Shown here one piece after another: positions 37,871-47,417 of a stretch of 64,000 nucleotides of DNA. The translations under genes and the position numbers were made by a program. Under the pieces are notes generated by a model. The model saw nothing but the letters and a program-made list of their open reading frames with translations. It had not been told where the DNA came from and ran no database searches. The first letter of the stretch is position 1; every line of letters begins with the position of its first letter. Source of the stretch: Brevundimonas subvibrioides (lineage in GTDB: Bacteria > Pseudomonadota > Alphaproteobacteria > Caulobacterales > Caulobacteraceae). The DNA lies in assembly GCF_027271155.1 (NCBI RefSeq), contig NZ_CP114542.1:2527001-2591000 (forward strand), written 5' to 3'.

Positions 37871-38533
37871 GTGCGCACACCATCGGATTGGATCGAACTT
37901 GGCCGGCGAGGGGCTTTTACCACAACGCAGGTTGCAGTGCTGCTGGACGTTGAGCCGACCAAAGTGGCGTCTTGGCTATCTGGACGTCCGCCGCTCATTG
38001 AGACTGATCTGCCGTCAGTCGCAGGCCGGATTGCCTTGTCATTCGACGGGCTGATCGAAGCGCGTGCCGTCAACTACCTCCTCTCTGAAGGCATTCCGCG
38101 TCGTCGACTTGGAAAGGCAATGGACGCGATGCGTCTGCGGTGGGCTGATCCACATCCGCTAGCGCGCGAGCGGACCCTCACTACAGACGGCTCTGCTGTG
38201 CTTGAACTGAACGGCGACCGCATCATCGATCTGCTCACTGACGCCTATCTACATCCGGAGATCCTTCGGCCGGCGCTGGCTGGACGTGTTGTTTTCAAGA
38301 GCGGGCGGGCTGCATGGCTTGAGCCCTTTCCGGACGAGATGCCTTTAGTTCGCATTGACCCGTCCCGGGCGTTCGGCCGGCCTGTTGTGGTGGAGGAGAC
38401 CACATCGGTACCCACAGAGACGCTGGCCAACTCAGCGTTTGTGGACGGAACGGCCGAGGCTGCAGATTGGTTTGGCGTGACAGGCCAGGCGGTGGATCAA
38501 GCTGTCGCTTTTGAACGGCGTATCGCAGCTTGA
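37871..38533 (+). CDS. Antitoxin-like protein (HTH plus DUF433-like C-terminus)
   Basis: This 220-residue protein starts at a GTG behind GAGAGGAC. The N-terminal AFTTTQVAVLLDVEPTKVAS segment is a MerR-type or HTH-17 helix-turn-helix. The C-terminal region VRIDPSRAFGRPVVVEETTS and AADWFGVTGQAVDQAVAFER matches DUF433, which usually pairs with PIN-like toxins. The downstream gene starts within its stop (TTGA), as in coupled toxin-antitoxin pairs. Role as antitoxin is inferred from the pair. Confidence 0.75.
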   Translation: MRTPSDWIELGRRGAFTTTQVAVLLDVEPTKVASWLSGRPPLIETDLPSVAGRIALSFDGLIEARAVNYLLSEGIPRRRLGKAMDAMRLRWADPHPLARERTLTTDGSAVLELNGDRIIDLLTDAYLHPEILRPALAGRVVFKSGRAAWLEPFPDEMPLVRIDPSRAFGRPVVVEETTSVPTETLANSAFVDGTAEAADWFGVTGQAVDQAVAFERRIAA

Positions 38534-39015
38534 CGCTTATCCGCTTCGACGAATGCATAAATCCTCGCATCGTCGATGCAATACGAGCGATCCGAGTTCC
38601 GCCCGAAATCGAGTTAGAGACCCCGCAAGAACTGGCTCAACGGGGCCAGCCAGATGTCGGATGGATTGAAGAGTTTGGGGCCCGCGGCGGACGCTTGGTC
38701 GTTTCCGGCGACGGAAACATGCGCCGGGTCCAGCTTGAGCGAGCGGCACTTGAGGCCTCCGGGCTGATCGCGGTGTTCCCCCATATGAAATGGTACGGCG
38801 GCTTGGGTCGGTGGGGGCAAGCAGCATTCTTCATGGCTTGGTGCCCCAGCATTGTGCGGCTGGCGCAGGAGGCAGAACCCGGCGCTCATTTCCGCATTCC
38901 ACCCTCGTTGTCGGGCGAGTTTGCTAGCTTGGAACGCCTCAAGTCACTCGCAGAAATCGAGTCGGATAGAGAAGAGAAGGCTGTCCGTCGCGCGGCAGCA
39001 AGACCGGACCGCTAA
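38530..39015 (+). CDS. PIN-like domain toxin candidate
   Basis: This 161-residue protein starts at a TTG overlapping the antitoxin stop. The N-terminus MTLIRFDECINPRIVDAIRA carries the first acidic residues (DE) of DUF5615/Mut7-C-type PIN-like domains. VVSGDGNMRRVQLERAAL supplies a further Asp. Such proteins are predicted RNases. The pair with DUF433 is a known toxin-antitoxin layout. Catalytic competence is not provable here. Confidence 0.72.
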   Translation: MTLIRFDECINPRIVDAIRAIRVPPEIELETPQELAQRGQPDVGWIEEFGARGGRLVVSGDGNMRRVQLERAALEASGLIAVFPHMKWYGGLGRWGQAAFFMAWCPSIVRLAQEAEPGAHFRIPPSLSGEFASLERLKSLAEIESDREEKAVRRAAARPDR

Positions 39016-39139: not shown

Positions 39140-39415
39140 TCAATCGGGGATATCGGGCTCATCCCCCCACAGGCCAGAGCCACCTCGATTGCTCGCCCCA
39201 CTACCCGCCTTATTGGCGGCGGCAAACGGTGACTTAGTGGAGGCGCTATGGGTCGAACGATAAACGAGCCTGTCGCTGACTATAGTCCCAACATAATGGC
39301 CATCGGGGCCGTAAACCCTGTCGCCGTGAATCCGTCCTACGACTTGGCCCGAACGGCTGTACACTTTGTCGCCAGACACCTGCAGCGGCCGGCCGTCCTT
39401 CGTGTGCAATCCCAT
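39140..39415 (-). CDS. 4-fold beta flower-like protein
   Basis: This 91-residue protein has a repeat of short beta units: DGRPLQVSGDKVYSRSGQVV, GRIHGDRVYGPDGHYVGTIV and SDRLVYRS. It ends with a Ser/Gly-rich tail. It resembles the 4-fold beta flower family, predicted to be ligand- or lipid-binding and often near defence genes. ATG at 39415 with GGAG 6 bases upstream. It sits between the toxin-antitoxin pair and the ubiquitin-like operon. Function unknown. Confidence 0.6.
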   Translation of the reverse strand: MGLHTKDGRPLQVSGDKVYSRSGQVVGRIHGDRVYGPDGHYVGTIVSDRLVYRSTHSASTKSPFAAANKAGSGASNRGGSGLWGDEPDIPD

Positions 39416-39510
39416 TGATTTCTCCAACGGCCGAGTCCGGTCTTCAGCAGCCTCTTCGCTTGTCCGGCTAAGCCTTTCTATTGGTGTAAGGGGCCATCTA
39501 CCCGCGCACC

Positions 39511-40869
39511 TTATTTCGAGACCACCACATATCCATGCTCGTAGGTTCCGCCGACCGCTACCCCTCCTTCAACATCATCGAGGCAAGTCAGGGCTCCTGC
39601 CAAAACGTCCATCGCAAGTCCGCCGTGCAGGCGACGCAAAAGCTCCGAAATCACCAGCACACCCGCAAAGATGCCCACGAAGGGGACGCCAACCGTCCTT
39701 GAGGCCAATTGCGCGAGGCCACACGCGTCTAGGCCTCTCTCCTTCAGCGCGGCATAGGCCGGCATGTGAGAGACATTCGGTCCGCCCGCCATCACCGTCG
39801 ACGGCCAAATCGCCTTGGCGGTCCGCGCGCCGGGGAACACATGCATCGCAACATTGCGGAAGCTCTGCGGGCCCGCACCCAACCCCGATTCGACGACTAG
39901 ACCGAACCCACCATCTTCGAGGGCCGCGCGGGCGATGGGGTTGTCCACCCCGCACAGGGCGACGCCCGGCTCATGCTGTTGGCGGCGAGTCCAGTGGCCG
40001 TAACGTCGCTCTTCAAGAAAGGTGGCGAAACCACGATCCTCCAACCAGGCCGCGACCATGCGCGTCTTCATCTGGCCCAGCATGTCCAGACGGGTTAGCA
40101 CGGACGTGCTGTCATTCGATTCCACCAGCCGATCATCATCCTGCAGAACCAGCTCGAGCCCGCCGCGAGGATAAGGCAGCGTAGCGAGGAGCCAGGCATA
40201 GGCCTGTCCGAGATTGCCGAGGCCGATCAGCCAGAGCTTTGACGGCAGGAAGCTCAGGTCAGGCTCGCCAAGGTCGCCGATCGTCCAGTCCGAACCGGGT
40301 TGCCACAGCGAGAACCCCGCCGCTCGCTTGCCCGCCATCGGGTGGTCGCCCGCATGGTAGGCGAAGACTTCCGCGGCGCAGATCGCCGCCGCCAGCGCCG
40401 GGGCCAGCGGCACTTGCTCGTCATCGGCAAGGCGCCAACCTTCGTCAGACGGAACCACCCCTCCGCGCCATCCCTCCCAGGTCATGCACCACACCGGCGA
40501 GCCCGAGGCGGTCACGTCAGCCGTGCCGATCATCGCAACCGGGCAGCGTGGTTTGGCCATCTCGGAGACATGCCCTCCGAGGTCAAGCACGGCGTCAGCC
40601 AGCGAGGGTTGGAGCGACAGCGGCACGAGGACGGGCACGTCCAGCGGGCCGACTACATGAACGCCGCCAAGAAACGTCCGGCGGGCTAGGTTGACCAGGG
40701 TTAGCAGCGCGATCTGCGCGGCGGGGCTGCTGCGAATCTCCGGGCCGACGGCGATAGTCAGGCCGAAGCTTTCCAGCAGGCCCATCGCCTCCTCGGCGGT
40801 CTGCGCCCGGCCGTTGTCCATGAAGTATTTGGCAGTTCGGTTGAAGCGCGAGTGAAGCGGCTCGGTCAT
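39511..40869 (-). CDS. bilD: E1-like activating enzyme, BilD-type
   Basis: This 452-residue E1/ThiF-fold protein has a divergent N-terminal half, then the nucleotide motif LWLIGLGNLGQA at about 213-222. An acidic DDD (244-246) for Mg-ATP follows, then VALCGVDNPIARAALEDGG. Cys383 in DACGLAQLAS is the candidate thioester residue. It would adenylate the C-terminus of the ubiquitin-like protein encoded by the first gene of the operon. It is last in the order Ubl-E2-JAB-E1, the layout of Bil operons. ATG at 40869, 1 base after the JAB stop. Confidence 0.85.
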   Translation of the reverse strand: MTEPLHSRFNRTAKYFMDNGRAQTAEEAMGLLESFGLTIAVGPEIRSSPAAQIALLTLVNLARRTFLGGVHVVGPLDVPVLVPLSLQPSLADAVLDLGGHVSEMAKPRCPVAMIGTADVTASGSPVWCMTWEGWRGGVVPSDEGWRLADDEQVPLAPALAAAICAAEVFAYHAGDHPMAGKRAAGFSLWQPGSDWTIGDLGEPDLSFLPSKLWLIGLGNLGQAYAWLLATLPYPRGGLELVLQDDDRLVESNDSTSVLTRLDMLGQMKTRMVAAWLEDRGFATFLEERRYGHWTRRQQHEPGVALCGVDNPIARAALEDGGFGLVVESGLGAGPQSFRNVAMHVFPGARTAKAIWPSTVMAGGPNVSHMPAYAALKERGLDACGLAQLASRTVGVPFVGIFAGVLVISELLRRLHGGLAMDVLAGALTCLDDVEGGVAVGGTYEHGYVVVSK

Positions 40870-40870
40870 G

Positions 40871-41392
40871 TCAGCTCCAAGGGCCGGTGTAGAGGAAGCC
40901 GGGGCTGGTCTTGGGAGAGCGGTCGCTCCACCGGTGGCTGCCCTGGTATTCGTAGATGCCGACTTCGCCCCACGGGATCGGCGCGATGGCAAAGTTGGGC
41001 AGGATGATTCCGACGTGGCCGGCGCGGGCCACCATCGGATTGGTCCGGTCGGCCTCGCTTTGGAAGGCGCGGCCGCCATGGGTGTGGATGTCGGCCACCA
41101 CGGTCAGCTGGTGTTCGCGGCAGAGCGCCCACAGTTTGGCGAAGGCGGGCGCATGCAGAATGCAGACCCCACTGTCGTAAGCTTCAGGTTCGAGCTCGTC
41201 ATAGAAAACGACGCGGGTCACTTCGCGCCGCCCGCCCCGCAGCTGGCCGAGCAGGAACACCCCGGCTTCGTGCTGGCGTTCCCCCCGCCGGTCGAGTTCG
41301 GCGACGACCGCGTCCCACAGCACAGAGGGACAGCTGAGGCGGTGGTCAGGCGCGACGAGCGCCCGAATAGTCGCTTTGATGGAAGAGATCAT
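40871..41392 (-). CDS. bilC: JAB/JAMM deconjugating peptidase, BilC-type
   Basis: This 173-residue metalloprotease of the JAB/MPN fold has Glu42 upstream and HxH-x6-SxxD at residues 103-115 ([16 protein letters not shown]), the zinc-binding and catalytic JAMM pattern. It should cleave the ubiquitin-like modifier from targets or process its C-terminus. ATG at 41392 has a GGAG ribosome site 8 bases upstream. It overlaps the end of the E2 gene by 47 bases. Third gene of the operon. Confidence 0.85.
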
Positions 41393-41831
41393 AAAGCTGC
41401 TCCAGGTAGCAGATGATGCCGCGGCCGGGTTGCCAGAGGCGGCTCGGATGGTCGTTGCGCCAGGCGTCGTGGCCCTCGATCGAGAGCCGGTCGCAGGGCA
41501 GGTAGAGGCAGACACCGAGCTTCCAGTCGGGGCGGAAGATGGACGGGATGATCGTCTTCCCGGTGGGCCAGCGGTCGAACGCCAGCGGGCTGTTGGCCGC
41601 CACATCCCAGGGCTGGGCGGTGACGGGCGTCTGCCGATAGCCGGAGCACTCGTAGCGGAAGGCATATTCTTCCGGTCCGACTTCCCGGGCTTCGGCGGCG
41701 ACCGCGATGAAGACGTAGGGCCAGTCGGTGGCCACGTGGCGCCAGCGCCCCTCCACCTCGCCGCACCGGAATTCTGGCGCGGCGAGGTCTTGGTCGAGGA
41801 GCAGCCGGTCGGGAGAGACCGCGATGTTCAT
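41346..41831 (-). CDS. bilB: E2-like conjugating enzyme, BilB-type
   Basis: This 161-residue protein resembles a UBC/E2 fold. Strand-rich [20 protein letters not shown] and [20 protein letters not shown] lead to [20 protein letters not shown] and [14 protein letters not shown], then a C-terminal helix. Cys108 or Cys113 in VCLYLPCD is the likely thioester residue. It starts immediately after the Ubl stop. Family identity rests on context and the E2-like core; sequence similarity to canonical E2 enzymes is weak. Confidence 0.78.
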
Positions 41832-42326
41832 CTAGCCCTCGACGCGCTTTTCGGGAACAAGGTCGAAGCAGACCGAGCAGACCGGTGCCGCGGTCAGCTG
41901 GCGCAGGGGCGTGTCCGTGGCCGGGCGGTCCGTCGAGCCGCAGAGCTGGAGCACGTGCTCGGCAGCGTCGTTGGCGTCGAGCCCGAACGTCTTGACCGCC
42001 CAGGCCTTCACCTTCTTGACGCGAGCGCCGGGCGCGAAGGTCTGGTCGGCCGTCTTTTCGAGGTAGTTCACCGTCACCTTGATCTTGCGGCACTTGGTGA
42101 CGTGGATCCGGCAGCCCCGCTTGATCGGCAGGAGCAGCTCGCCCTTCTTAGGCTTGCGCTTCAGCGGCTCGTCTTCTTCATCGAGGAAGACGAAGCTGTC
42201 GTCGCCGAGCTCGACGCCGAGCTTGGCGAGGATCTCGAAGAGCTGCTCGTAGGTGGGTTCCGCCGGCAGGGTCGCCTCAACGAGGCTGTCCGAGCCCTGG
42301 ACTTGGATGAAAACGATGGTGGTCAT
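41832..42326 (-). CDS. bilA: Tandem ubiquitin-like protein, BilA-type
   Basis: This 164-residue protein has two ubiquitin-like halves: residues 1-78 (MTTIVFIQVQGSDSLVEATL, then KPKKGELLLPIKRGCRIHVT) and 80-164 (KIKVTVNYLEKTADQTFAPG, then VLQLCGSTDRPATDTPLRQL). It ends in RVEG with a terminal Gly, the attachment residue expected for a ubiquitin-like modifier. The two-domain layout recalls ISG15. First gene of the four-gene operon, 86 bases downstream of the ImmA-helicase gene. Confidence 0.85.
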   Translation of the reverse strand: MTTIVFIQVQGSDSLVEATLPAEPTYEQLFEILAKLGVELGDDSFVFLDEEDEPLKRKPKKGELLLPIKRGCRIHVTKCRKIKVTVNYLEKTADQTFAPGARVKKVKAWAVKTFGLDANDAAEHVLQLCGSTDRPATDTPLRQLTAAPVCSVCFDLVPEKRVEG

Positions 42327-42412
42327 GTCGGTGTCCTTTCCGTCCGCCTGAATGGCGTTCTGAAAAGGAAGCGACGTCAGGCCGAGAAAACCGGAAGCCG
42401 GTCAGGCCGAGA

Positions 42413-45400
42413 TCATGCCCCGCAGATGAAATAGCAGGGGCAACCGGGGCATCGTTGCGGATCGGGCTTCGGGTGGAATTCCCCCCGCTCGATCCCGGTA
42501 ATGGCGTCGGTATATTCGCCAAGAAGCTTGTCGTCTTTCCCCGCCTCCATCGGCGCCGCTTCGTTGGTCGCGGGGTAGTAGGCTTCCACCGACACGCGAC
42601 ACCCGGGGTAACGCTGAGCGGCTCCGCGCCGAAGGAGCGCATAGATGCGGTTCTCCGCCTCTGACTTGGATTTGCGACCGGTACGGACCCGTTGAACACG
42701 CACACTTCCGTCGGCGACCAGCACCACCCGGTCCGGCTCGTATGTCACCACTCGTCCTTCGAGCTGAACGGACCAGGGCTCGCGGTCATACTCGCCCGCC
42801 TCGGTGGCAATGAGCCTTGCAATGGAGACCACCATGCTGTCCGCCGCGGACCGGTAGTAGCCATTGAAGCCATGATGCACTGGCCCGTGCATCTCCCATT
42901 GCCTTGCGAGTTCTGCGCGAGCCTGCTCCGGGCTTGCTGGCGCTCCGTCGCGTGCCTGTTGCTCAAGCCACGCCATGGTCCGGTAGACGCAGCGATGGAA
43001 ACGCAGGTAAGGCGAGGCCTCGCGGCCACCCCGTAATCCATCGACCACTTCGTACTGGTAGCGGGCGGGGCATCGTAGATAAATGTCGAGTTCGCGCTCA
43101 GCGTAGCTATCTTGCCGTCCACGCGGCGCCCACACGGGAGCCGGTTGGACCTGGGGAGCGGGTCCAGCGAACCGCGTGACCATTACGTGGCGTGCGACCG
43201 TATCGAGGAACTTGGAAGCGCTGGCATTGACCTGTGTGTACCGTTGGGCGCGACTGAGGCAGAGATAGTCGCGTGCGCGCGACAAGCCGACGAAGAAAAG
43301 ACATTCCTCTTCGGCGTCGTGATCCTCCTTCTGCATCACCAGTTTAGCCAGCGACGCCGGAGGCGGGCACCGCGCCCATTGGCGGTTGCTGGGCATATAG
43401 CGTGTAGCTAGCGCGGGAAGATGGACACCCCGGAATTCCAGCCCCTTGCTTCCGTGGATGGTCATGACGCGGACGGCGTCGAAGTCGGAGGCCTCCGAGA
43501 CGACGGCCCGGTATCGGCTATCCTGGTTTAACGCCTCGATCCGGCGGATGCGCTCGAGAAAGGCTTTACGGCCAGGATCGCGCAGGGCGGACCCGCCGTG
43601 CAGGTCGCGTTGCTCGCTGCACACTTTTAGGAGCTGATAAATGGCGATCAGTTGTTGCTGCGCTTTCGGGTGGTTAGATTCGAGCAGCGGACGAAGGTAA
43701 TCGCTCCGCTCGAACAACCAGCTCGTCACGAGTGTCCAAGGTGAGGTCGCCGAACCAAACCCGGCCAATTGCCCAGCGAGTTTTGACAACCCGGTTTTGC
43801 CCGCTTCGCTAATCCCTTCCATCTCGGTCAGCCGATGGAGGGCGTCGAAGATCGTGGCATCGTTTTCCTCGGCCCACTGAATAACAACGAGGGCGTCGGC
43901 TTTGCTCGCACCGTACTCAGGTAGCTGGGCGAGCCGCACCAAGCCAATCCCACCGAACTCGGCGTCGATGGCAACGAGCGAAAGAAGGTCGCGAATATCG
44001 TCGCGCTCGAACAAGTCGCCGAGATAGAGCAGCGGCACGTTCAGCTGTTCCAGCACGCCAGTGATGCGCGAGAGCGTGAGGTGGCTGCGGGCGAGGATGA
44101 CCTGGTCCCGATAGGCGATGCCGGCGGCGCGTAAGGCTTCGATCTGATCGCGTATAGCTGCGGCTTCCTCGGCGACGGTGTCGGCGACGGTGAGCGTCAC
44201 CTCGCCGAGTTCACCGCGATGCGCATTCCAATTTGCGGCTGCGCCGGGATCGGCCGCCATGTGCCTTGAGAATGCGGAGAAGGCGCGCACGACCGGCCCG
44301 CCTGAACGGTAGTTACTTGTGAGCGAGAGCTTGGCGCCGCGGAAATCGGTTTGGAAACGTCCGACGTTGGCGGGCTCCGCACCGCGGAACCGGTAAATCG
44401 ACTGGCGTTGATCGCCGACCACCCAGACATCCTGGCAGGCACCCGCGAGTACCTGCAGGAGGCGCGCGCTGGCGAGGTTCACGTCTTGATACTCGTCGAC
44501 CAGGATATGTTGGAAACGCTCACGATACTCGTTGCGAATATCGTCGTGGTCGGTAACGAGCTGCACCGCGAGCATCACGAGATCGCCGAAATCCATGGCG
44601 TCCGCTTCGCGCAGCAGCTCCTGATAGATTTTGTAGATGTGCCCGACTTCGACGGCTTTCTCGGCCGCTTCATCGCCGGGGTTCAATGCCAACGCAGCTT
44701 CCGCTTCCGCCAGATATTGCTCGGGCGAGAGTAGCTCGTCTTTGCAGCGCGAGATCGCGCCGAGCACGTGGACCAGCTCGAAGGCCGGCTCATAGAGGTT
44801 CTGGTAGTGCCGCAACGGCAGGCGCGTGAGATTGTCCTCGAGCAAGGCCAACTGGGTCGTCTGATCAAGGATTTTGACGTTCGCGGTGCGGCCGACGCGG
44901 CTCGGCCATTTCGTGACGAGCTCCAACCCGAACTGGTGGAACGTCCCGACCCACATCTCGATGGATTCATCGGGATGCGAGACTGACAGCCGCTCGCGCA
45001 TTTCCTCCGCAGCCTTGTTGGAGAAGGTGAGTGCGAGGAATGTACCGGGGAGCGCGCCGGCCCGGAGTACGTGCCCGATCCGGTGTACCAGGGTGCGCGT
45101 TTTCCCGGTGCCTGGGCCTGCATCGAGCAAGAGCGGCCCGCCGGACCAAGTGGCAGCTTTCTGCTGGCTGTCATCCAACGCGACAGCTGGGCCCGGCTGT
45201 GCAGCTGGCGGAGCCATGAGCGGAGGAAGTAGTAGGGCGCGGATCGCCTGGTTCAGCACTAACCCATAGGGAAGGCCGAGCTCTTCAGCGATCTCTGAAG
45301 GACGGCGGCGCTGTCCGACCAGCCGGCTACGCAGCCAATCGGCCGGACAGAGAAATTCACCGGCGAACACATCCGCCTGAATTTCCTTCCGCTCGCGCGG

Positions 45401-45766
45401 CGAGTGACCTTCGACCACGCCAGCGCCGCTGTCGATGATGTCGCCGCCGAGCTGGGATTGAACGCTGCGAACTTCCGTTGTTGCGTCGTGGTGCAGTTGC
45501 GAGTGCCCGATCTCGTGCGCGATGACGACGACTTCGTCCTTAGGATCCTGACCGCGCACCACATAAACAAGTCCATCGTCTCGGATGAACATGCCGTAGA
45601 CCCCGTCGCCAAAACGCTCGCCCGGATCGCAAGGCTTCAGCTCCAAGTCGCCTTCCTTGATCGCCGCATCAACGAGCGCCCGGCCGCGGCGATCGCCGTT
45701 CGCTCGCGCCAGGGCGAGTCCATGACAACGCCTGGCTTTCAGCCGGATGTCACGCCAGGCGTCCAT
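42413..45766 (-). CDS. ImmA/IrrE metalloprotease - UvrD helicase - nuclease fusion
   Basis: This 1117-residue protein has three parts. Residues about 1-180 form an ImmA/IrrE-type zinc protease with AHEIGHSQLHH (HEIGH at 84-88) and EIQADVFAGEFLC at 128-140. A UvrD/Rep superfamily-1 helicase follows, with Walker A GPGTGKT at 217-223, LVDEYQDVN, GDQRQSIYRFRGAEP and MTIHGSKGLEFRGV. The C-terminal PD-(D/E)XK nuclease-like segment has an early Cys in YLRCPARYQYE and a closing cluster CPGCPCYFICGA, probably an AddB/RecB-like Fe-S nuclease. Such a fusion would link protein cleavage to DNA unwinding and cutting. It is third in an operon with a sigma-like and an HTH gene. Confidence 0.85.
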   Translation of the reverse strand: MDAWRDIRLKARRCHGLALARANGDRRGRALVDAAIKEGDLELKPCDPGERFGDGVYGMFIRDDGLVYVVRGQDPKDEVVVIAHEIGHSQLHHDATTEVRSVQSQLGGDIIDSGAGVVEGHSPRERKEIQADVFAGEFLCPADWLRSRLVGQRRRPSEIAEELGLPYGLVLNQAIRALLLPPLMAPPAAQPGPAVALDDSQQKAATWSGGPLLLDAGPGTGKTRTLVHRIGHVLRAGALPGTFLALTFSNKAAEEMRERLSVSHPDESIEMWVGTFHQFGLELVTKWPSRVGRTANVKILDQTTQLALLEDNLTRLPLRHYQNLYEPAFELVHVLGAISRCKDELLSPEQYLAEAEAALALNPGDEAAEKAVEVGHIYKIYQELLREADAMDFGDLVMLAVQLVTDHDDIRNEYRERFQHILVDEYQDVNLASARLLQVLAGACQDVWVVGDQRQSIYRFRGAEPANVGRFQTDFRGAKLSLTSNYRSGGPVVRAFSAFSRHMAADPGAAANWNAHRGELGEVTLTVADTVAEEAAAIRDQIEALRAAGIAYRDQVILARSHLTLSRITGVLEQLNVPLLYLGDLFERDDIRDLLSLVAIDAEFGGIGLVRLAQLPEYGASKADALVVIQWAEENDATIFDALHRLTEMEGISEAGKTGLSKLAGQLAGFGSATSPWTLVTSWLFERSDYLRPLLESNHPKAQQQLIAIYQLLKVCSEQRDLHGGSALRDPGRKAFLERIRRIEALNQDSRYRAVVSEASDFDAVRVMTIHGSKGLEFRGVHLPALATRYMPSNRQWARCPPPASLAKLVMQKEDHDAEEECLFFVGLSRARDYLCLSRAQRYTQVNASASKFLDTVARHVMVTRFAGPAPQVQPAPVWAPRGRQDSYAERELDIYLRCPARYQYEVVDGLRGGREASPYLRFHRCVYRTMAWLEQQARDGAPASPEQARAELARQWEMHGPVHHGFNGYYRSAADSMVVSIARLIATEAGEYDREPWSVQLEGRVVTYEPDRVVLVADGSVRVQRVRTGRKSKSEAENRIYALLRRGAAQRYPGCRVSVEAYYPATNEAAPMEAGKDDKLLGEYTDAITGIERGEFHPKPDPQRCPGCPCYFICGA

Positions 45767-45769
45767 CGC

Positions 45770-46384
45770 TTATGCGTCCTCAAGCCAGTACGATATCCGC
45801 TCGGGCGACATCGTACTTTTGCGAACGATTTCCGCGTAGCTCGACTGCACCACGGTCGGCGTTTTGGACGCCTTCGCATGTCCCACTTGGGGATGGTCGA
45901 CAGCGTAGTTCACTGCCCAATCAAACTGCGCGGCGGTCACTCGGAGTTTGTCGAGCAGGGCTTGGGTAAGCCGCGATCCGACAGGCGGTTTCATCCATCC
46001 GTTGAAGAGTGCGGCAATCACATCGCGGCCGATATCCAGCGATTTGCTTAGCTCAGGCTTGGTAAGGCCCACGGCACCGAGGAGTTGATCGAAGGTCGCT
46101 TGCTTCCCGCCGCTCGACTGCGATGCCATCTCGGCACGATAAATCGCGTTGAGGGTCCGGCTGTGGGCGCGGCTCAGCATCTGCTCGCTGATTTCTTCTT
46201 CCACCGCATCGCCGGTGCCGGCTCCCCACTCGCGCATGAGACCCGCGTGATCGCGAATGTCGTCAGCGAATTCCGGATAGCGCTTGGTCCAACGGATGAT
46301 GTCATCCACCGTCGGCGACGCGCAGTCGCGATAGAATGCGAAAAGGACCTCGTCTCGCCGCGTGGCTTTGGTTTGGTCCGTCAT
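45770..46384 (-). CDS. HTH-containing regulator of the ImmA-helicase operon
   Basis: This 204-residue protein starts MTDQTKATRRDEVLFAFYRD. A region at about 93-150 (ATFDQLLGAVGLTKPELSKS, then VIAALFNGWMKPPVG) resembles an XRE-type helix-turn-helix. An N-terminal helical domain precedes it. Given the ImmA/IrrE protease encoded next (3-base gap), it may be a repressor cleaved by it, as DdrO is by IrrE. That role is inference. It overlaps the sigma-like gene by 4 bases. Confidence 0.65.
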   Translation of the reverse strand: MTDQTKATRRDEVLFAFYRDCASPTVDDIIRWTKRYPEFADDIRDHAGLMREWGAGTGDAVEEEISEQMLSRAHSRTLNAIYRAEMASQSSGGKQATFDQLLGAVGLTKPELSKSLDIGRDVIAALFNGWMKPPVGSRLTQALLDKLRVTAAQFDWAVNYAVDHPQVGHAKASKTPTVVQSSYAEIVRKSTMSPERISYWLEDA

Positions 46385-47034: not shown

Positions 47035-47417
47035 TTCTCACCCTCAATCGATCGTCGACGCACTCCTTCAGCAGAGCGAAGCTGGTTGAAAAAAACCGGA
47101 AGCACTTCGATAGATTTTTGGCGAAGCCCCCACCGCAGCCAGAACTCTACAGTTACAGAGCGCACTTTGGGGGAGAATTCGTGGAGCGCGTCAACCCGCG
47201 GTCGCGCCAAGGCAGAATGGCACCCTTTGCCGGGCAACCTGCGGTGGGTTTTTGGATCCGGGATGCCGGTCTGACATCCAGCGTGGAATGCCGTTACGCC
47301 GCTAAGGAGGAATCACTCGTTTCGTGAACCTTCCGCTGAAGAGACATTCCGGAGGCCTGCTATGAGTCACGTCCAGAAGTTGGCTCGTGGAAACGACGTC
47401 AAACCATACCGGCAGCA
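47035..47417. other. Intergenic region upstream of the sigma-like gene
   Basis: These 383 bases separate the EcoRII-type gene from the sigma-like gene, both on the minus strand, and must carry the operon promoter. A plus-strand AAGGAGGA with a downstream GTG and ATG occurs near 47303-47362, but the open frames it would serve run antisense into the restriction gene and look spurious. No repeat or RNA recognised. Confidence 0.4.

Follow-up and report, generated by a model that had tools for sequence, protein, structure and literature searches.

Bil systems protect against phage, as the review PMC11354881 describes, and the same review lists for BilABCD the four components encoded at the locus considered here, a ubiquitin-like modifier (Ubl), an E2-like protein, a JAMM peptidase and an E1-like enzyme. 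Among regulators built on IrrE-type peptidases, CapP of the CapH+CapP pair is activated by single-stranded DNA (ssDNA), according to PMC13373217, and for PprI/IrrE ssDNA activates repressor cleavage (PMC10904395). The present locus lies on the minus strand of a 64,000-nucleotide stretch of Brevundimonas subvibrioides DNA (NZ_CP114542.1, positions 2,527,001 to 2,591,000), referred to here as the window. Its Bil part is a new member of the known system, sharing with it the gene order, the four protein families, the tandem Ubl ending in Gly, the candidate E1 and E2 cysteines and the JAMM site, and it differs by a three-gene control cassette in front. The cassette genes, which encode a sigma/LuxR-like protein, a probable helix-turn-helix (HTH) regulator of 204 residues (p204) and an 1117-residue fusion protein, stand directly upstream of bilA on the same strand. 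It is fairly probable that all seven genes form one operon, composed of a DNA-damage-sensing control cassette and BilABCD, in which the cassette drives conjugation. A preliminary description of the window had recognized the four-gene core, which stood; however, the operon runs from 47034 down to 39511, and the three upstream genes as well as two promoter-like sites had been overlooked.

Linkage of the cassette to ubiquitin-like operons

The association between the cassette and ubiquitin-like operons is strongly supported. The cassette adjoined such an operon in 34 of the 35 cassette loci read. It preceded Bil genes in 13 (the window, L001-L005, L007, L059, L061-L064 and L071) and a multiubiquitin-type operon, as judged by Pfam, annotation or blastp, in 20 (L055, L056, L073, L075-L079, L081, L082, L089-L093 and L096-L100). 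In one further locus (L080) a divergent multiubiquitin-type Ubl operon lay back to back with the cassette, and in the last (L074) the cassette was followed by IS66. At L093 an E2 and an E1 were found by blastp and no multiubiquitin gene, at L096 an IS5 element separated the helicase and multiubiquitin genes, and at L062 blastp recognized the helicase alone and not the two short genes in front of it. The six window-like Bil contigs with more than 6 kb before bilA (L001-L005 and L007) carried the cassette genes in the order seen in the window, the helicase gene of L007 being split in two pieces. L007 and L100, the loci with broken helicase genes, are counted among the 35 and lie outside the helicase tree and the 33-protein tallies given below. 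Excluded from the 35 were L006 (151 nt upstream of bilA), L014-L029 (partial or distant BilD matches) and L060 (weak BilC/BilD relatives); seven further plasmids, on which a helicase lies ~1.6 kb before bilD by coordinates alone, also stand outside this count.

The plasmid loci were hand-picked from ranked lists (15 non-Bil rows from lists of 40 and 60), and the genome samples were unchosen. In the latter, a profile of the IrrE part detected carriers in 5 of 385 genomes of the class and 6 of 398 of the phylum, which amounts to 10 distinct carrier genomes because the window's genome was counted in both samples. A ubiquitin-like operon lay beside the cassette in all 10 (in G340 by coordinates); the G340 locus and the Dongia contig L001 gave equal identities and are probably one genome. 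The 34 loci in which the cassette adjoined a ubiquitin-like operon came from three classes of Proteobacteria, one planctomycete and one cyanobacterium.

On a BilD tree of 22 rows the presence of the cassette required 4 changes, at least 2 of them forced, and on a helicase tree of 33 rows the payload required 3 changes, again with at least 2 forced. L071 is a clear swap, in which a Bil payload follows a cassette of the multiubiquitin type. The multiubiquitin operons, which we infer to be Bub with reference to PMC13373217, share the same cassette but have different modifiers, different arrangements of E1, E2 and JAB, and DUF6527. The Multi_ubiq Pfam model had no match in the window's genome, a result that is uninformative because the control was likewise without a match.

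The cassette proteins and the Bil core

Pfam recognized IrrE/M78, UvrD and PDDEXK_1 domains in the 1117-residue protein. All 33 relatives retained the HExxH motif, Glu128, the Lys of Walker A and the DE of Walker B. None of the 33 had an acidic residue at its place in (D/E)xK, the Lys of which remained in 3; the first Asp was present in 26. Because the nuclease is predicted to be dead and the peptidase and helicase look live, this pattern suggests a sensor rather than a nuclease effector. Three of four cysteines were kept in all 33 relatives; Cys 899 lies outside that tally, and all four were kept in 24/24 proteins of a smaller set. We take these cysteines to be of the type that holds Fe-S clusters in this superfamily.

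The source annotation reads "sigma factor" for 3 of the 11 listed homologues of the sigma-like protein, and relatives passed the Pfam cut-offs for Sigma70_r4, the region 4 HTH expected of an ECF-type sigma factor (L073), and for GerE (L063). The AF2 model of p204 (mean pLDDT 82.3) comprised a helical N-domain, a disordered stretch and a loose tail, with a five-helix region (98-163) that resembled an Xre-type HTH by eye; HTH_31 was matched just below the cut-off in one relative. In the proteins P0196 and P0197 the N-domain of p204 is kept (51% over 37% of the query) and joined to an S24 autoprotease domain of the LexA/UmuD type in place of the rest, whereas p204 itself carries no S24 domain by Pfam. 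This fusion independently points to proteolytic release upon DNA damage, a logic shared with the LexA/UmuD autoproteases, in which a regulator is inactivated by proteolysis upon DNA damage. In a plasmid search with P0196 the 15 records listed of 4238 matched the S24 part alone, and no context was gained.

The four successive minus-strand genes of the core, in the order Ubl, E2, JAMM and E1, proved real and intact, and the Bil identity and gene order proposed in the preliminary description were borne out by PADLOC, whose models matched all four proteins (E-values: BilA 5.5e-52, BilB 3.6e-63, BilC 3e-64 and BilD 1.2e-167). By Pfam, the E2 was DUF7665 and the JAB and ThiF matches were sub-threshold, while NCBIfam gave weak MoeB matches to the E1 and nothing else. 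The bilC gene overlaps bilB by 47 nt. A longer frame, 39511-41079, merely extends the E1 gene upstream.

The AF2 model of BilA (mean pLDDT 93.6) contained two consecutive beta-grasp halves, as had been anticipated for this 164-residue protein, and the ISG15 likeness previously suggested was recovered by Foldseek, in which the best PDB match was human ISG15, followed by other ISG15 and linear di-ubiquitin entries. The TM-scores were near 0.4 because, in our reading, the two halves are oriented differently. BilA ends in RVEG directly before the stop codon with no extension, and the earlier view that it needs no maturation fits the terminal Gly of its relatives. Of 375 homologues found, 120 were listed, and 119 of these end in G and one in RVEGAA. 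Given this terminal Gly, BilC would here more probably serve in deconjugation than in maturation. The JAMM motif already described (HxH and S..D) was kept in 23/23 aligned BilC proteins, and Glu42 in 22/23, the exception being a cut fragment.

In BilB, the spacing of Cys113, Glu119 and His121 equals that of Cys138, Glu144 and His146 in the published active site (C138, E144, H146 and H151; PMC11354881), but the fourth His is displaced to a different spacing. Among 23 aligned loci the Cys113 position held Cys in 14 and Trp, Tyr or Leu in 8 (L057, L058, L062, L066, L067 and L069-L071), and was unreadable in L007; the proteins without this Cys may be inactive or may use another. In BilD, residues G216, G218, G221, D244, K268, D309 and C383 were kept in 14/14 aligned sequences and N252 in nearly all of them, so that the ATP site expected of the E1 is supported at the level of sequence. 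The only solved BilD (8tyz, 535 residues) was the best PDB match of the 14-sequence BilD profile (E 2.4e-7). No Bil structure came up when BilA, BilB and three BilD proteins were each compared with the PDB as single sequences, and profiles of BilA and p204 matched nothing convincing in the PDB. Since 8tyz was reached by the profile alone, the BilD group of the window is far from it.

Table 1. Features of the seven-gene locus (positions in the window) and of three comparison loci (positions in the locus named).
Feature	Coordinates	Strand	Basis or remark
Bil core operon, order Ubl-E2-JAMM-E1	39511-42326	(-)	four intact genes
bilA, 164-aa tandem ubiquitin-like modifier with C-terminal Gly164	41832..42326	(-)	PADLOC, AF2, Foldseek
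bilB, E2-like (DUF7665), 161 aa, candidate Cys113	41346..41831	(-)	PADLOC, Pfam, alignment
bilC, JAMM deconjugase (predicted), 173 aa	40871..41392	(-)	PADLOC, alignment
bilD, E1-like, 452 aa, candidate Cys383	39511..40869	(-)	PADLOC, alignment
Putative sigma/LuxR-type factor, 217 aa	46381..47034	(-)	Pfam matches of relatives
p204, 204 aa, probably an HTH regulator and proposed as substrate of IrrE	45770..46384	(-)	AF2, relatives
IrrE/M78-UvrD-PD-(D/E)XK fusion, 1117 aa, proposed DNA sensor	42413..45766	(-)	Pfam, residue tallies
Promoter-like motif CTTCCGGTTTT-N12-TCGCT ahead of the sigma-like gene, first of the cassette	47075..47102	(-)	
Second motif copy, in the 86-nt gap before bilA	42370..42397	(-)	
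Mre11/Rad50-like pair, L062	9574-14299		
Mre11/Rad50-like pair, L071	9498-13303		
Mre11/Rad50-like pair, L073	12175-15333		

Just downstream of bilD, 39140-39427 encodes a 95-residue protein with sub-threshold beta-flower Pfam matches, and a plus-strand pair of genes at 37871-39015, the second PIN-like (PF18478), is possibly a toxin-antitoxin pair. In several cassette loci the ubiquitin-like operon is followed by a Mre11/Rad50-like pair, a DNA repair exonuclease and an AAA/YhaN ATPase.

Promoter-like sites and the proposed control of conjugation

The motif CTTCCGGTTTT-N12-TCGCT occurs exactly 2 times in the window (0.00 by chance) and exactly 2 times in the genome of 2,973,988 bases (reversed control 0); the pattern was written from these two sites, and the genome count thus shows specificity only. 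Independent support came from further loci. Such a pair stood at the same two places in 10 of the 13 Bil loci, the others having a motif of the other type (L071), a pair that had diverged, as judged by eye (L061), or none (L062). The other type, TT[AT]CCG-N16/17-CGATT, was found in the gap of 13 of 17 non-Bil loci. A second TT[AT]CCG-type copy lay inside the sigma-like gene in 11 of those 13, mostly 190-215 nt before p204; as this copy belongs to a coding region, constraint on the encoded protein may account for some of its conservation.

The bases after the -35-like block covaried between the two places: agreement reached 104 of 110 positions for the Bil type, against 89.8 in permutations (10 loci; 0 of 20,000 as high), and 93 of 110 against 79.1 for the other type (10 loci; 4 of 20,000 as high), figures that are somewhat inflated by the relatedness of the loci. 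L074 and L092 were excluded for their gap spacing of 16, and one of the two upstream sites of L064 was used. By ungapped similarity, the gap resembled the upstream region more closely than any control tile did in 10 of the 12 Bil loci tested, the exceptions being the window and L071, and in 0 of 13 testable non-Bil loci. No inverted repeat was common to both promoter regions.

Ten Bil loci lack the full cassette (L008, L057, L058, L065-L070 and L072), and in six of them (L057, L058, L066, L067, L069 and L070) an IrrE peptidase was found beside bilA together with an HTH, either on its own or as part of a fusion. CapH+CapP-like pairs occupy in such loci the place that the cassette takes in the window. 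The window shares with CapH+CapP an HTH and an IrrE-type peptidase upstream of immunity genes, the zinc peptidase residues being kept in 33/33 fusion relatives; unlike CapP, its IrrE is not free-standing but is fused to a helicase and a dead nuclease (Pfam), and the cassette adds a sigma/LuxR-type gene. With PprI(IrrE)-DdrO of Deinococcus the IrrE peptidase is shared, but that system is not a defence operon and has no helicase fusion or sigma factor in the abstract of PMC10904395.

These data moderately support a mechanism inferred from sequence. Phage infection or damage would expose ssDNA, and the helicase/dead-nuclease part would engage it and switch on the IrrE peptidase, which would cut p204, predicted to repress or to act as an anti-sigma factor. 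Once released, the sigma-like factor would fire its own promoter and the promoter before bilA. BilD would adenylate Gly164 of BilA, which would pass through Cys383 of BilD to BilB, at Cys113, and from there to targets; BilC would remove it again. The control part would operate as CapH+CapP or PprI-DdrO do, the additions being a sigma factor and the attachment of the peptidase to a helicase.

Several observations weigh against this mechanism. The window's own sigma-like protein fell under every Pfam cut-off, with sub-threshold hits, and the HTH of p204 is seen in a model with a pTM of 0.52 and in a sub-threshold Pfam match. The window's own pair of sites was not significant by plain similarity (4 of 62 control tiles were as good), the gap motif was not found in 4 of the 17 non-Bil loci, and autoregulation differs in the non-Bil type, whose second site falls within the sigma-like gene. 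L065 carries the first two cassette genes only, and no regulator was found at the Bil loci L008, L068 and L072, L008 having been searched only by tblastn, with genes of the window as queries, across 2.98 kb.

Alternative explanations and significance

The helicase fusion could instead be a Gabija-like effector or a DNA-processing arm, with Bil acting beside it. Its UvrD part matches the GajB and DRT helicase models of PADLOC, a similarity shared with Gabija, and its helicase motifs are intact. In contrast to Gabija, no GajA match was obtained among the 8 proteins scanned with PADLOC, and IrrE and a dead nuclease are fused on. An effector role stands lower in our ranking since 33/33 relatives have lost (D/E)xK, and with the IrrE site strictly kept it is considered unlikely. 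Were BilA to be attached to the cassette proteins or guided by them, conjugation might toggle the sensor, as E1/E2 do with the CBASS cyclase. That the cassette is so constantly linked to conjugation systems of two kinds would suit such a role, which is nevertheless distinctly doubtful, since one cassette type serves both Bil and multiubiquitin enzymes and other Bil loci manage without it.

There is a small chance that the operon serves a DNA-damage stress response and not phage defence. The IrrE and S24 logic and the Mre11/Rad50-like genes after several loci agree with this; the window, however, is a defence island, and protection by Bil is directed against phage. A chance neighbourhood, with unrelated genes hitchhiking in a mobile-looking defence island beside tRNA-Ser, is scarcely credible when a ubiquitin-like operon adjoins the cassette in nearly every locus read across distant taxa.

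The whole locus combines a known Bil core with a control cassette that no paper found describes. No paper linking the IrrE-UvrD fusion to Bil or multiubiquitin operons was found in a comparison that did not extend to the original Bil and Bub papers, and the main text of PMC1779556 makes no mention of "helicase".

The chances seem even that the two kinds of ubiquitin-like system share an exchangeable alarm cassette, in which an IrrE protease joined to a helicase senses DNA damage and sets free a dedicated sigma factor, specific to the promoters of the cassette and of the conjugation operon. Little is known of how bacterial ubiquitin-like defences are switched on, and the conserved cassette makes this directly testable, with a promoter to assay, candidates for both protease and substrate, and a sensor fused to a helicase. 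Shared control would tie Bil to the multiubiquitin systems. If this is true, Bil would be an inducible ISG15, turned on by infection rather than constantly present, and its logic would parallel that of interferon-induced ISG15.
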